This document shows, piece by piece, positions 20,401-35,400 of a stretch of 64,000 nt of DNA. Every line of letters begins with the position of its first letter. Positions within the stretch are counted from its first letter, which is position 1. Both the position numbers and the translations under genes were made by a program. The stretch covers positions 8,453,166 through 8,517,165 of the forward strand of contig OZ036013.1 in NCBI GenBank assembly GCA_964035015.1, in the 5' to 3' direction. The notes beneath the pieces are model-generated. The model was not told the DNA's origin. It ran no database searches and saw nothing but the letters and a program-made list of their open reading frames with translations. Origin of the DNA: Corallium rubrum. Taxonomy: Eukaryota; Cnidaria; Anthozoa; Scleralcyonacea; Coralliidae.

Positions 20401-23400
20401 CTCTTCACTTCACTAAAGAGTACACGACTCTTTTGGTGAATCGATTCTATTGAGGAGTAACGCGACTCCTTGTTCACTCCAACAAAATGACTCCAGAAAG
20501 AGTCAGACGATCCCACCAGGAGTCCTATGATTCTAAGAGAGAGTGCAGAGACTCCGGCAAAGAATCGTTTTGACTCCAAGTTAGGGTCAAAACAACTCTT
20601 GGAGTAAAAATGACACCTTGAAATAGTCGAAACGACCCCCAGATTAAAAAAGCTGAAGTGACTCCTTGGGGTCAAAACAACTCTTGAATTTACAGTGTAT
20701 ATTTGGCAGTGGTATTCATTGAGATCGTCGTCGTCTGAGAGACTTGTGTAACGGTGTAATTATACCTCCGCCAAGAGATTATATGTTTATATGAACTCTT
20801 TGTTTGTTTGTTTGTTTGTTTGTTTGTTTGTTTGTTTGTTTGTTTGTTTGTTTGTTTGTTTGTTTGTTTGTTTGTTTGTTTGTTTGTTTGTTTGTTTGTT
20901 TGTTTGTTTGTTTGTTTGTTTGTTTGTTTGTTTGTTTGTTTGTTTGTTTGTTTGTTTGTTTGTTTGTTTGTTTGTTTGTTTGTTTGTTTGTTTGTTTGTT
21001 TGTTTGTTTGTTTGTTTGTTTGTTTGTTTGTTCTTAATTAAGAAGGCAAAAGTTAATTATCGCGCACCTGTGGACGATATGAAAAGATTTTATACTACGG
21101 CCAACATATTAGGCCATAGCATTTTTATATTGTTCTCGGTCCTTAGGGGAGCAGAAAACAATTGTTCCATTACCTGAAACAATATGAAAACGCTAGGAAA
21201 ACGTATACGTGTGGTGGGGTCTTAGAAAATGGTGCCCAAGTATGGTATGGTGGCCTAACGAAGGAACAAAGTAATGATATAGAACAGATCCATAAACGAG
21301 CACTAAGAATAGTTTATTCAGAATATGACTATTTAACAATTGGACAACTCGCCCTCGTTTTCTACGAGTCGATACTGTATCAGATAGTCAACTCGGCGAA
21401 GAAACTGAACGTTTTACGAGAAGCTCAGTTGCGTACGCCATTGATAAGTTTAATTCAACGCTATGTCCCTAAAGCAATTAATAAATAACATGGTTTAAAC
21501 GTTTCTATTTTTAACTTGAAATAAATTTAAATCGTTATGTAAATTGATAGAATTTTGAACTATATAATTATTACAAATTATTACGCACATTTTAATATTT
21601 TTAAACGCATGTAATGCGCATTCCAAATTAACTTTTTTATATAGCTATTCTATGTGTAAACTTTGAATAAATTATAAATTATCGCTATGAAAATTGAAAA
21701 CCTTCAACGAATTAATCAATTTATTTTGTTGTTCGATCTTGTTTTTCTAGGGAAGTCTTCTTGCCAACTTCAAAGAATTAAACTCTATCACGTTATCACG
21801 AAATAAATTCGAAAGCTTTCCGTCTGGTCCACCTAAACAGTTCGAGACTATAACGGTAAGGATAGTTCAGTTGTAAAGATGTATTTATAAACAGTGTTTA
21901 TTGTTCATGTATACCAACAAAGTTAGTAATTAAGGCTCAGTTTAGTTTTCTAATTAGTAATTATTGCTGCCGAAGGCAGCACACTAATCTTGACATGGGT
22001 CATCCGTGTCTCGTGTCCAGACCTCAGTAGATAACCCCCCCCCCCCCCATATGGTGTATCAAAGGGATGCCGCCTCATTAAATATTCAGCGTGACTCATG
22101 CATGACTCACGCACCATGACTCACGCATGACTCACGCCTGTGACATGATTGGGCAAGATTGGAATAATTATAGTATACATGAAGCTATATAAGCTCGGTG
22201 ATTTCGTGTTGTTGCTACTTTTCCTAAAGTGTTTTACCTGTGGAGTTTACTGTCTGCGATATAGTGTTTTCTTGGGAGATATTTTCGAAGATATTTTTGT
22301 AGGTAAGATGTTTTGCACTTATTCGTTTTATATTGCCTGACGACGTTCACTGTGTATTTTATCAGAGTTTAATATATGTTGTGTTTCATTGACAGCAATG
22401 GATCTTACCGATGTAATCAAAGGTTGTACAACTGTCGAAGAAATAGAGGCGCTGGAATGGCTCTTTGATTTCGAGGATAGGCATAAGCAAGCAGCCTTGT
22501 TTCAACGTATCATTATATTGTCGAATGCCTTGGAGCGTGATTTGGAGAACGAACGTTGTGGGATTTCTACGGTGTTAATGGATGGTTGGTCGGACGAGCA
22601 ACGCGAATCCTTTAAGCGAGATTGGAACGATGATTCGTTTATGGCCGAGATGGACGACGGCGGTCAGGCCCCCGAACCGGCGATACCCTCGTTATTGGAT
22701 GGTTGGTCGAACGAGCAACACGAATCCTTCAGAATGGATTGGAACGACGATTCATTTATGGCCGAACTAGAGGATATTTCTGATGTCCCTGGTGAACCGT
22801 CGATACCCGAGGTATCTATCCAGACCGGAGAAGGAAGCCGAAAACGAGCCGCTAAACCAAGTACGGAATCAATACCAAGTAAGAGATCTAAAACTGTTCC
22901 GTTATTTACGATAAAATCTGTTAAGCAAGTACGCGTGAAAAAGTTTAAGACCACGGGCCTTGATTATCGTGTTCAGTTTGGCGATTTGCAAGTCCAAGGT
23001 TTGCCTGATATCCTGAGGCAGTTACATCATGTATTTGAAAGTCTACTCGATCGCGTAACCGATGGTATTGCTATGCATGACCAAGTTAGATTTATTATGC
23101 ATTCGCCTCAACTCGAGTATCCTATTTCGTTAGCATTTATGCCTCGTGAGAGATTAACCGTTGAGAGAATCCTGGCCGAGATCGAAAGAGTAATTCAGTC
23201 GAATGATTCGTTTAAGTTAGATGATTCGATTACCGTCAATATTATTCATGTTGAGATGCCACACGGTGGTACGGGAAGAAAGCGAAAGATTGCTAATCTC
23301 GATAAGTATCTTACCAACAAAAGAGCTATCGTCCGAATCCAAAACAAGGACGATCTCTGTCTTAGCCGGGCCATCGTTCTAGCCAAAGCCAAAGTCGACA

Positions 23401-32400: not shown

Positions 32401-35400
32401 AGGGTGTTGATTAGCTCGTTTCACCACCTGTTTGCAGTGTTGACACTTTATGACAGATACACAAATTGAACGCTTTTCGCCCACGGATGCTTTGTGCCTG
32501 TCAAAACACTCTTGGCTCTTGAAAAATCGAGCGCAATCGTTGCAAAATACCCAGCTTGTAATCGGACAGTTTTGCGTGTAGCATAACTTGCACGTATCGC
32601 CACAGAGGTGGTCTTCCACTTTATCATACCCCTTCTTACACGTATGACAGTACTTCTTACGAGCGAGGAAAGCTGGCATGCTTGTAATTACATCATAGTG
32701 GTTATCGTGGGAGTAGAGATAAATACGCTTCGGTGCCTCAGGGCCAGAGTAAATAAGTGCATTCAAATGTTCTTTCGAGACAATGTTTATCTGGTAATCG
32801 GTCAAATAGACTTGGAACTTTTTCACTTCTTCGATACCGCACTGTCCGAGTGGTACGCCGGCATTTTCATGTAATTCACGAGCAAGGTCACCTTGTAAAG
32901 GTCCCCGACAATCCTTTATGCTAGAGTACCGTTCATCATTGTCGACTTTGGCTTTGGCTAGAACGATGGCCCGGCTAAGACAGAGATCGTCCTTGTTTTG
33001 GATTCGGACGATAGCTCTTTTGTTGGTAAGATACTTATCGAGATTAGCAATCTTTCGCTTTCTTCCCGTACCACCGTGTGGCATCTCAACATGAATAATA
33101 TTGACGGTAATCGAATCATCTAACTTAAACGAATCATTCGACTGAATTACTCTTTCGATCTCGGCCAGGATTCTCTCAACGGTTAATCTCTCACGAGGCA
33201 TAAATGCTAACGAAATAGGATACTCGAGTTGAGGCGAATGCATAATAAATCTAACTTGGTCATGCATAGCAATACCATCGGTTACGCGATCGAGTAGACT
33301 TTCAAATACATGATGTAACTGCCTCAGGATATCAGGCAAACCTTGGACTTGCAAATCGCCAAACTGAACACGATAATCAAGGCCCGTGGTCTTAAACTTT
33401 TTCACGCGTACTTGCTTAACAGATTTTATCGTAAATAACGGAACAGTTTTAGATCTCTTACTTGGTATTGATTCCGTACTTGGTTTAGCGGCTCGTTTTC
33501 GGCTTCCTTCTCCGGTCTGGATAGATACCTCGGGTATCGACGGTTCACCAGAGACATCAGAAATATCCTCTAGTTCGGCCATAAATGAATCGTCGTTCCA
33601 ATCCATTCTGAAGGATTCGTGTTGCTCGTTCGACCAACCATCCAATAACGAGGGTATCGCCGGTTCGGGGGCCTGACCGCCGTCGTCCATCTCGGCCATA
33701 AACGAATCATCGTTCCAATCTCGCTTAAAGGATTCGCGTTGCTCGTCCGACCAACCATCCATTAACACCGTAGAAATCCCACAACGTTCGTTCTCCAAAT
33801 CACGCTCCAAGGCATTCGACAATATAATGATACGTTGAAACAAGGCTGCTTGCTTATGCCTATCCTCGAAATCAAAGAGCCATTCCAGCGCCTCTATTTC
33901 TTCGACAGTTGTACAACCTTTGATTACATCGGTAAGATCCATTGCTGTCAATGAAACACAACATATATTAAACTCTGATAAAATACACAGTGAACGTCGT
34001 CAGGCAATATAAAACGAATAAGTGCAAAACATCTTACCTACAAAAATATCTTCGAAAATATCTCCCAAGAAAACACTATATCGCAGACAGTAAACTCCAC
34101 AGGTAAAACACTTTAGGAAAAGTAGCAACAACGCGAAATCACCGAGCTTATATAGCTTCATGTATACTATAATTATTCCAATCTTGCCCAATCATGTCAC
34201 AGGCGTGAGTCATGCGTGAGTCATGGTGCGTGAGTCATGCATGAGTCACGCTGAATATTTAATGAGGCGGCATCCCTTTGATACACCATATGAGGGGGGG
34301 GTTATCTACTGACCTCTTTGCCAAGCTATGTATAGTCAACAAGATCTCGATTTTGAGATGTTTTAAAAAAATGTTGACCATTTTATGACGTTTTGTGACG
34401 TAGGAAGTTTCTTCCTACAACTTACATCACATACGCCAGAAGGATTTGTTTGATGAAATTACATGTACGTTTGAAGGATTGAAGCATGGTTTCAACACGG
34501 CAACACCACGATGGTGATGGATTTTCTGAACTGGCAATGCCACGAGTTAGTAATCACTTCAATGTTCTTGGCTACAAATGAACACACTTGTTGTCTTAAT
34601 AGGATAATAGGATCTTATACAATTTTAGTGAGGAGTGATAAAACACTCCTGCTCGTTTATTTTAAATACTTAAATATTCGATTGCTGTTGATTGTTGAAA
34701 TATATTTACCGTCCAGTATAGCGCATTTATGTTTCTTGTCCACACGTTTGGGATTTGTGGAAATTTAATTGTTGTATCTGTCGAATTTATATATTAAAAC
34801 GGCATAATCGAATCTGCTGTCTTCGTTGAGGTTGTACTTTACTATAAATATTCGATCAACAACAATACCACGATCGACGAACATTATATATGTAGATCAG
34901 CACTGAAGACTTTGACTTTGTATATCTCTAAACTTTTTAAATTAGATTCGGAAAGTTCAGAAACAAATAAACACTTCTTTCTTGCATTTAGTATATTTAA
35001 ATATGTTGTAGTATAAACGCCACTTACTAAAGATGGTCATTAACTGATTTGATAAATTTGTTAAGAGAATGTCTTGTTATTTGTACGGTTTTTGTTATTC
35101 TTGGTTGCTCAAATAGTTCGCTGAATAATTTTACATATGCAAGCCAACTATACTTTGTTGATCAGTGACTGTACCAAGCTCCCCGTTACAGTGTGAGTCG
35201 CTCATCAAAATATTATTAAATTGTAGGGGTCACGTTACCAGCCTTTGCCGTGGTCTTCTCCCCCGCCCCCCCCCTTCCCCCCCCCCCCGCCATTTGAGAA
35301 GGCCCTGGGTACGAGGTTGACTTTTTGCCCGACTAATGACTGGGAGTTACCATATTTCAATTTACATTGAGTTCTGTGGTCAATCCCCGCTATTGACGTC

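Follow-up and report, generated by a model that had tools for sequence, protein, structure and literature searches.

A palindromic Polinton with two PolB genes in the octocoral Corallium rubrum, probably a copy-back derivative of an ordinary element

Introduction

Polintons, also called Mavericks, are believed to multiply as free linear molecules whose DNA synthesis is primed by a protein. Here we analyse an element of this type in a stretch of 64,000 nucleotides from the octocoral Corallium rubrum (assembly GCA_964035015.1, contig OZ036013.1, forward-strand positions 8,453,166 to 8,517,165), referred to as the window. The element occupies window positions 22026-34310 and is essentially one inverted repeat with a DNA polymerase gene, PolB, in each arm. 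It resembles animal Polintons of the adintovirus-like kind in its PolB of protein-primed type, its 6-bp target-site duplication and its ends that start with AGT, and ordinary Polintons, with an integrase that has rve and chromo domains, a packaging ATPase and a major capsid protein (MCP), occur in the same genome. We propose, with a probability of about three in four, that the window element is a copy-back (snap-back) derivative of such an ordinary octocoral Polinton.

Genomes with one end doubled are known from other systems. In the copy-back or snap-back defective genomes of negative-strand RNA viruses, one end is doubled in reverse around a loop when the polymerase turns back on its product, and the junctions are many. 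The window element and its relatives are like them in the doubled end and the varied junctions, but differ in that they are DNA, integrated and vertically inherited. Adenoviruses form palindromic incomplete genomes, for example in incomplete particles where both ends derive from the left end. These are alike in being protein-primed linear double-stranded DNA with both ends from one, and differ in being unintegrated; our literature searches found no paper on palindromic defective adenovirus genomes. Foldback transposons share the very long inverted repeats with the window element, but have no PolB and use other transposases.

An in vitro parallel is provided by multiple displacement amplification with phi29 polymerase, for which a passage of PMC1855051 reports that 406 of 475 chimeras were inverted, mostly with an intervening gap, and that complementarity of at least 2 nt, and up to 21 nt, was present in about 77%. 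These chimeras have the inverted joint, the skipped interval, the short complementarity and the strand displacement by a protein-primed PolB in common with the present case, but are an artefact of the test tube, unlike the transposable element in the window. The intact vertebrate Mavericks described in a passage of PMC8097293 have lengths of 12.7-24.6 kb and terminal repeats of 46-1,447 bp, in contrast to the window element with its repeat of 5.8 kb, two PolB genes and neither integrase nor capsid gene. The abstract of PMC7805220 states that an extracellular form of Polintons had not been detected. Palindromic or copy-back Polintons are not reported in the titles and opening lines of abstracts listed by our literature searches, mostly of open-access papers, and passages of PMC12721341 and PMC8504770 concern other matters. 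Copy-back genomes are an already known kind, and the Polinton case is new within the literature searched. We class the window element as a non-autonomous Polinton derivative and, among copy-back genomes, as a new variant that consists of DNA and is integrated.

Structure of the window element

The element has the ends AGTAGATAACC and GGTTATCTACT and is bounded by a perfect 6-bp duplication, GACCTC, which direct comparison places at 22020..22025 and 34311..34316; the outer flanks are unrelated. The left arm (22026..27847, plus strand, 5,822 nt) and the right arm (28495..34310, minus strand, 5,816 nt) are 99.69% identical over the 5,822 columns of a pairwise alignment, with 11 mismatches and 3 gap openings. 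Between them lies a spacer of 647 nt (27848-28494), which is single-copy and outside the inverted repeat. When the sequence is followed from the right end, there is a terminal repeat, PolB, a tRNA-like gene, a minisatellite and the start of an ATPase gene; after a turn in the ATPase gene, the same end follows in reverse. The packaging-type ATPase fragment (27848..28310, minus strand) holds the first ~154 codons, with an N-terminal C2H2 finger and Walker A and B motifs, and at the fold-back point, 27847/27848, it reads straight into the minisatellite. Repeat scans place one minisatellite array at 27037..27847 in the left (short) arm, where the junction cuts it, and the other at 28370..29274 in the long arm, which runs on to 27848 through the ATPase fragment. 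The right array is longer than the left, and the palindrome is therefore asymmetric.

The 6-bp duplication on both sides, the terminal inverted repeats that start with AG(T) and a PolB of the protein-primed viral/organellar group are all those of a Polinton. Descent from a complete Polinton is traced through the ordinary element on contig C15, which is 2.7 substitutions per kb away and has an integrase at its other end. Within 22026-34310 the list of open reading frames (ORFs) contains no integrase frame, nor a capsid, protease or full packaging ATPase gene beyond the ATPase 5' fragment.

An earlier note on this DNA had recognized an exactly delimited Polinton/Maverick-type element with two near-identical inverted arms of ~5.8 kb, each with minisatellites, a tRNA-like gene and an intact two-exon PolB gene, and without integrase or capsid gene, and all of this is borne out. 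Its description of the element as a giant palindrome is right in so far as there is essentially one inverted repeat; the points to correct are that the 647-nt spacer is unduplicated and the arrays unequal, and the note had overlooked the 5' third to half of an ATPase gene at the centre.

Palindromes elsewhere in the genome

The assembly scanned comprises 474 Mb in 312 contigs; C-numbers denote contigs and L-numbers sequence stretches read from them. Each DNA probe search scored its best 40 candidates; counts are lower bounds, and proportions refer to that set. A probe of 1,475 bp from the left end of the window element gave 43 match rows and 40 ends (best 40 of 1,247 candidates), and 18 of these 40 PolB ends face each other at distances of 10-13 kb, which makes nine pairs, that of the window included. 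When the sequences of the eight others were read, all nine pairs were found to be palindromes, with arm identities of ~97.7-99.9%. The search thereby found what the earlier note had proposed looking for, further copies with different 6-bp duplications: seven of the nine have perfect ones (GACCTC, CCCATC, GATGTT, TATATT, ATGATC, GGTGTG and CACAAG).

The nine palindromes have nine different turn-round points, with spacers from less than 100 nt to 5.7 kb. At the centre of the window element the sequence passes from ATPase to minisatellite. The centres of the C14 and C20 palindromes lie within the ATPase gene, that of C25a in a short repeat cluster past the first part of this gene, and that of C25b beyond the frame ORF115. 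In C1 the centre joins ORF250 to PolB exon 2, in C8 it joins MCP to the middle of PolB, and in C12 and C18 it lies in the minisatellite region.

The integrase (INT) end can be doubled in the same manner. When an INT-end segment of one ordinary element (L025:3100-4000) served as the probe (best 40 of 1,881 candidates scored), inward pairs were found at C12, C30, C82, C86 and C20, i.e., at least five INT-end palindromes, and all five are flanked by perfect 6-bp duplications (GACATG, GACGGC, AACAGG, AATACA, CCTGTG). The ends were read for all five and the full arms for C86, where arms of 2.76 kb are 99.4% identical and the turn occurs between INT-end position 2780 and the ATPase gene. The palindrome at C20:3479533-3493547 is more complex, in that a further, truncated copy of the INT end lies inside it and is joined to ATPase sequence (L035). 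When both types are counted, a perfect 6-bp duplication is present in 12 of 14 palindromes. One end doubled in inverted orientation around a single-copy loop is the layout of the window element, of the eight further PolB palindromes and of C86.

Origins and junctions of the palindromes

To compare the arms, 1,130 sites were aligned, all of them outside the terminal repeat, and distances were measured from the left arm. By distance, no sequence is closer than the partner arm in any of the nine PolB palindromes; in the tree, partner arms are sister pairs in seven of them, and the two arms of the window element group with ordinary C15 in a single near-identical cluster. The window arms differ at one of the 1,130 sites (0.9 per kb), and their nearest other relative among the elements compared is ordinary C15, 13.2 kb long, at 2.7 per kb. 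When the arms are aligned over a greater length, they differ by between 0 (C18) and 15.4 (C1) substitutions per kb, with 1.2 for the window element. The 26-nt junction of the window element, the one junction for which genome-wide copies were counted, has a single match in the 474-Mb assembly at up to 2 mismatches, and its control has none. From the different centres, the closeness of partner arms and the unique window junction, the sequences indicate that PolB palindromes have formed repeatedly and separately, and that the palindrome in the window is recent and derives from a C15-like parent.

Junction microhomology could be read by eye in five of the nine PolB palindromes, i.e., where both parents of the joint were alignable. 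Four of these five testable joints have 4-11 nt in common: CTAA (4 nt) in the window element, GTTCAG (6 nt) in C14, TGTATC (6 nt) in C20 and TTTCGTTTCTG (11 nt) in C1. For equal base frequencies, simple arithmetic gives a chance expectation of ~1.6% per joint for at least 4 shared nt.

Ordinary relatives and census

The ordinary Polintons of the genome are 13-18 kb long and have the gene order PolB-ATPase-...-MCP-INT. To exemplify, the 18.3-kb element C85:60114-78372, with the duplication GATGTA, has at its INT end a gene for a GRF zinc finger protein (PF06839, 6.3e-21), followed by the integrase gene (rve 7.1e-15, Chromo 1e-12) and by two frames which we take to be penton-like and core-like. 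Among the relatives of its MCP are Porites proteins that bear the names capsid protein and major capsid protein, and its ATPase and PolB end are at the expected places. The ATPase of the ordinary relatives has a Pox_A32 match in Pfam, and the integrase of C15 was recognized by its DNA match to C85. The stretch from MCP to ATPase, read in C8, contains a protease-like frame, ORF250 and ORF115. Pfam gave no match for the penton-like frame, MCP, the protease-like frame or ORF250, and a PDB search with MCP gave none. Next to the C85 element, and apparently enclosing it, is a PolB-like gene that belongs to another Polinton family (L025:43-3115, C85:57043-60115).

Of the 22 PolB ends without a partner, nine were assigned to ordinary elements from the positions of PolB end and integrase (C15, C49, C8, C13, C82, C221, C1:11.05 Mb, C310 and C85); for three of these both ends were read, for two more the INT end, and the rest were placed by position only. 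The 31 elements found with the PolB-end probe are nine palindromic, nine ordinary, one mixed small (L045) and 12 unassigned. A count of palindromes from end motifs alone was dropped, since ordinary elements also give like-ended inward pairs; for the 38-nt end motif there are 38 inward pairs, 24 unpaired ends and no outward neighbours among the 100 of 140 matches (69 + 71) that were listed.

Small palindromic relatives

The core of the end motif has 549 + 539 matches in the genome at up to 2 mismatches, and the control has none. Many of these matches belong to elements of 4-7 kb with the ATPase and two ORFs but without PolB, INT and MCP (L026, C1:722150-727400). With a 765-bp probe for this small family, 17 outward-facing pairs and six singles were found (best 40 of 497 candidates), and five of the 17 pairs were checked by sequence. 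In L039, L046 and L047, arms 2.0-2.2 kb long flank the ATPase and the joint is identical at the three loci, while L040 (4.66 kb) and L048 (4.69 kb) are end-to-end palindromes with a joint identical at two loci. Clear duplications flank L047 (GAGGGA) and L048 (AATATA); that of L040 is GATATC with an extra ACT, L039 lies within a TA repeat, and for L046 the parser found no duplication match. Among the copies examined, the palindrome is the common form of the small family. When one joint is common to several loci, it follows that palindromic DNA can be mobilized after its formation, and these sequences suggest that palindromes can also multiply as palindromes.

A copy-back mechanism and its alternatives

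Consider a linear parent that is replicated outside the chromosome by its own protein-primed, strand-displacing PolB. In the case of the window element, the growing 3' end would come off the template at about codon 154 of the ATPase gene, and the freed 3' end would anneal, by means of CTAA, to the displaced, complementary strand within the minisatellite. The polymerase would then copy back to the end where it started, and the result would be a palindrome. Such a product has two working ends and could therefore be replicated and inserted like any Polinton, with integrase, and capsid proteins if it is packaged, supplied in trans by intact relatives. The layouts, the duplications, the independent junctions and the joints common to several small palindromes are read directly from the sequences; the extrachromosomal step, the polymerase responsible, the integrase in trans and any interference with the parents are what we infer here.

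Copy-back is the explanation that best fits the set as a whole, i.e., the doubled end, the single-copy loop, the short complementarity, the use of either end, the like outer ends and the 6-bp duplication. It is favoured by the observation that palindromes arise from both ends of the parents, PolB and INT, and by the inverted joints that phi29 polymerase makes in vitro.

Several observations weigh against it. The evidence is a genome assembly alone, from which we infer extrachromosomal palindromic DNA, and no terminal protein is assigned to the element. The C18 palindrome is without a duplication, and that of C1, GACACT, is displaced by three extra bases (ACT) at one end. The C1 arms are 31 per kb apart over the 1,130 sites and are not sisters in the tree, the C8 junction has two extra nt and no microhomology, and the two ends of the INT palindrome C30 differ at 10 of their first 185 nt. 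Moreover, ordinary elements of the window's subfamily carry the ~181-bp repeat at both ends, so that the termini of the window element cannot separate formation before integration from duplication in situ. The extra ACT at the right end of C1 (L014) and of L040, where it separates the duplication from the element, might, by analogy, stem from slippage at AGT repeats when replication starts by jumping-back. This way of starting is proposed for vertebrate Mavericks, whose ends read (AGT)2, in a passage of PMC8097293; it is used by adenovirus and other systems according to a passage of PMC4974454.

The type of terminus had been considered as proof of origin before integration. In C85 the PolB-end and INT-end termini differ (AGTAGATAACC vs AGTAGTGATACC). 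In the window's subfamily, however, ordinary elements share the PolB-type repeat at both ends, and a comparison that included a partial C15 PolB-end row gave no diagnostic columns between the two termini. This proof was therefore dropped; all that is retained of the argument from termini is a comparison of how far the two ends of an element diverge.

This comparison bears on the strongest alternative, which we regard as unlikely: that a Polinton already inserted suffered a later break, and that template switching, through break-induced replication or gene conversion, exchanged its INT half for a reversed copy of its PolB half. The 6-bp duplication would be kept, junctions with microhomology fit as well, and the like terminal repeats of the parent-like C15 mean that no terminal base of the window element contradicts it. 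Such an event would, however, have to be repeated over and over within a single family and with either end, and the outer end would have to be rebuilt intact on each occasion. When the first 185 nt of the two ends are compared, 13 of the 14 palindromes have 0-4 mismatches (C30 being the exception), as against 6, 17 and 50 in three ordinary elements. The two groups of small palindromes with junctions common to several loci also require mobilization after formation.

Less probable still is that two copies in opposite orientation recombined, for example through the minisatellite, and joined their PolB ends. The centres of the window element, C12 and C18 lie in or next to the minisatellite, and the arms of C1 are rather divergent; both observations speak for it. 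In most palindromes, however, no other copy in the comparison comes nearly as close to an arm as its partner does, and it follows that these did not arise by the joining of two different copies. Unique sequence is also the site of several joints (ATPase, ORF250-PolB, MCP-PolB), and C25b has private deletions common to both arms of this one locus.

The earlier note had seen in the element a distinct, self-contained form with two PolB genes, and one may ask if such a form is selected because it profits from the doubled gene. Both PolB genes are unbroken, but with arms only ~1-2 substitutions per kb apart their intactness needs no selection. The window junction occurs once and the nearest relative compared, C15, is ordinary; the other centres differ, some palindromes are of the INT-end type, and C25b carries an identical PolB deletion in both arms. 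In the stretches read of the INT-end palindrome C86 and of the small palindromes L039 and L040 there is no PolB gene. From this follows that the two PolB genes of the window element look like a by-product of doubling one end, and selection for them, which we rejected as the principal explanation on account of the unique centre and the C25b deletion, is very improbable. An assembly or library artefact, such as a palindromic read or a missed adapter, which the earlier note had named as a possible refutation and to which long palindromes as a known class lend some substance, has a negligible probability and is rejected for the set, because the inverted repeat extends precisely as far as the element does, the sequences on either side are unrelated and 12 of 14 palindromes have perfect duplications.

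If copy-back is the correct explanation, palindromes with many turn-round points, from both ends and with 6-bp duplications, would be the expected residue of protein-primed free replication, and a countable genomic signature of this hidden phase. A wider, tentative proposal, to which we give clearly less credence, is an inherited defective-interfering Polinton system, where ordinary elements keep shedding palindromes from either end, these integrate, and some lineages of small palindromes, with the ATPase and two ORFs or with the ORFs only, multiply in palindromic form at the expense of their parents. Palindromy would then be heritable and amplifiable, and would record an extrachromosomal, protein-primed phase. 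Should palindromes interfere with their parents, they would correspond to defective-interfering genomes, but with vertical inheritance. Any genome can be scanned by the rule of two like ends, a duplication, a single-copy loop and microhomology; annotators may mistake the very long inverted repeats for assembly errors.

Genes of the window element

PolB exon 1 has 3,532 nt and exon 2 has 698 nt, and both are open on both arms: at 22398..25929 and 26023..26720 on the plus strand in the left arm, and at 30411..33942 and 29617..30314 on the minus strand in the right arm. The intron between them is of the GT..AG type, and the exon joint reads NSFWG-KFAQ on both arms. Three residues distinguish the two proteins (P131S in exon 1; V/L and R/K in exon 2). 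In Pfam, exon 1 matches DNA_pol_B_2 (PF03175, 2.3e-47) and exon 2 alone gave no match; the latter is assigned from its continuity with the octocoral PolB P0003. In a protein search, the best named relatives are from octocorals, Dendronephthya gigantea (67-68%) and Paramuricea clavata (66%), and two further proteins rank above or beside them, one with 81% over 84% of the query. The matches include octocoral Polinton-type PolB and coral adintovirus PolB, and a scan of viral contigs with PolB gave no match. A TATA-like TATATAAG and a leader intron are putative features, recognized by eye.

The terminal repeat region, common to both ends of ordinary C15, C49, C13 and C8, occupies 22026..22206 (plus strand) on the left and, by comparison of the ends, 34130..34310 (minus strand) on the right. 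The tRNA-like genes, at 26881..26954 (minus strand) and 29383..29456 (plus strand), were found with ARAGORN and Rfam; they score 53.6 bits against the Rfam tRNA model, and ARAGORN gives them an 8-nt anticodon loop (taaa). Such a gene is called in eight of the nine PolB-palindrome stretches scanned (L019 is the exception) and is therefore a conserved part of this family. Its acceptor stem looks poor by eye, and it may be an odd or suppressor-like tRNA.

Other features of the window and the genome

Elsewhere in the window, positions 54496-54539 on the plus strand match a Type I hammerhead ribozyme (Rfam RF00163, 38.7 bits), and at ~60054-60635, plus strand, a frame resembles, by eye, the GIY-YIG end of a Penelope-like element. 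Further frames of retroelements are found at 39.7-41.1 kb and 61.6-63.7 kb, and an 89-bp tandem repeat at 38144-38376 overlaps a weak tRNA match (31.5 bits). Outside the window, contig C129 (L049, L050) holds 10 of 11 COX1 matches, in both orientations and some of them broken, as in a rearranged or multiplied mitochondrial stretch. One COX1 gene on this contig has 96% identity to Coelogorgia palmosa, 95% to Ellisellidae and 94% to Protoptilum, in agreement with an octocoral host.

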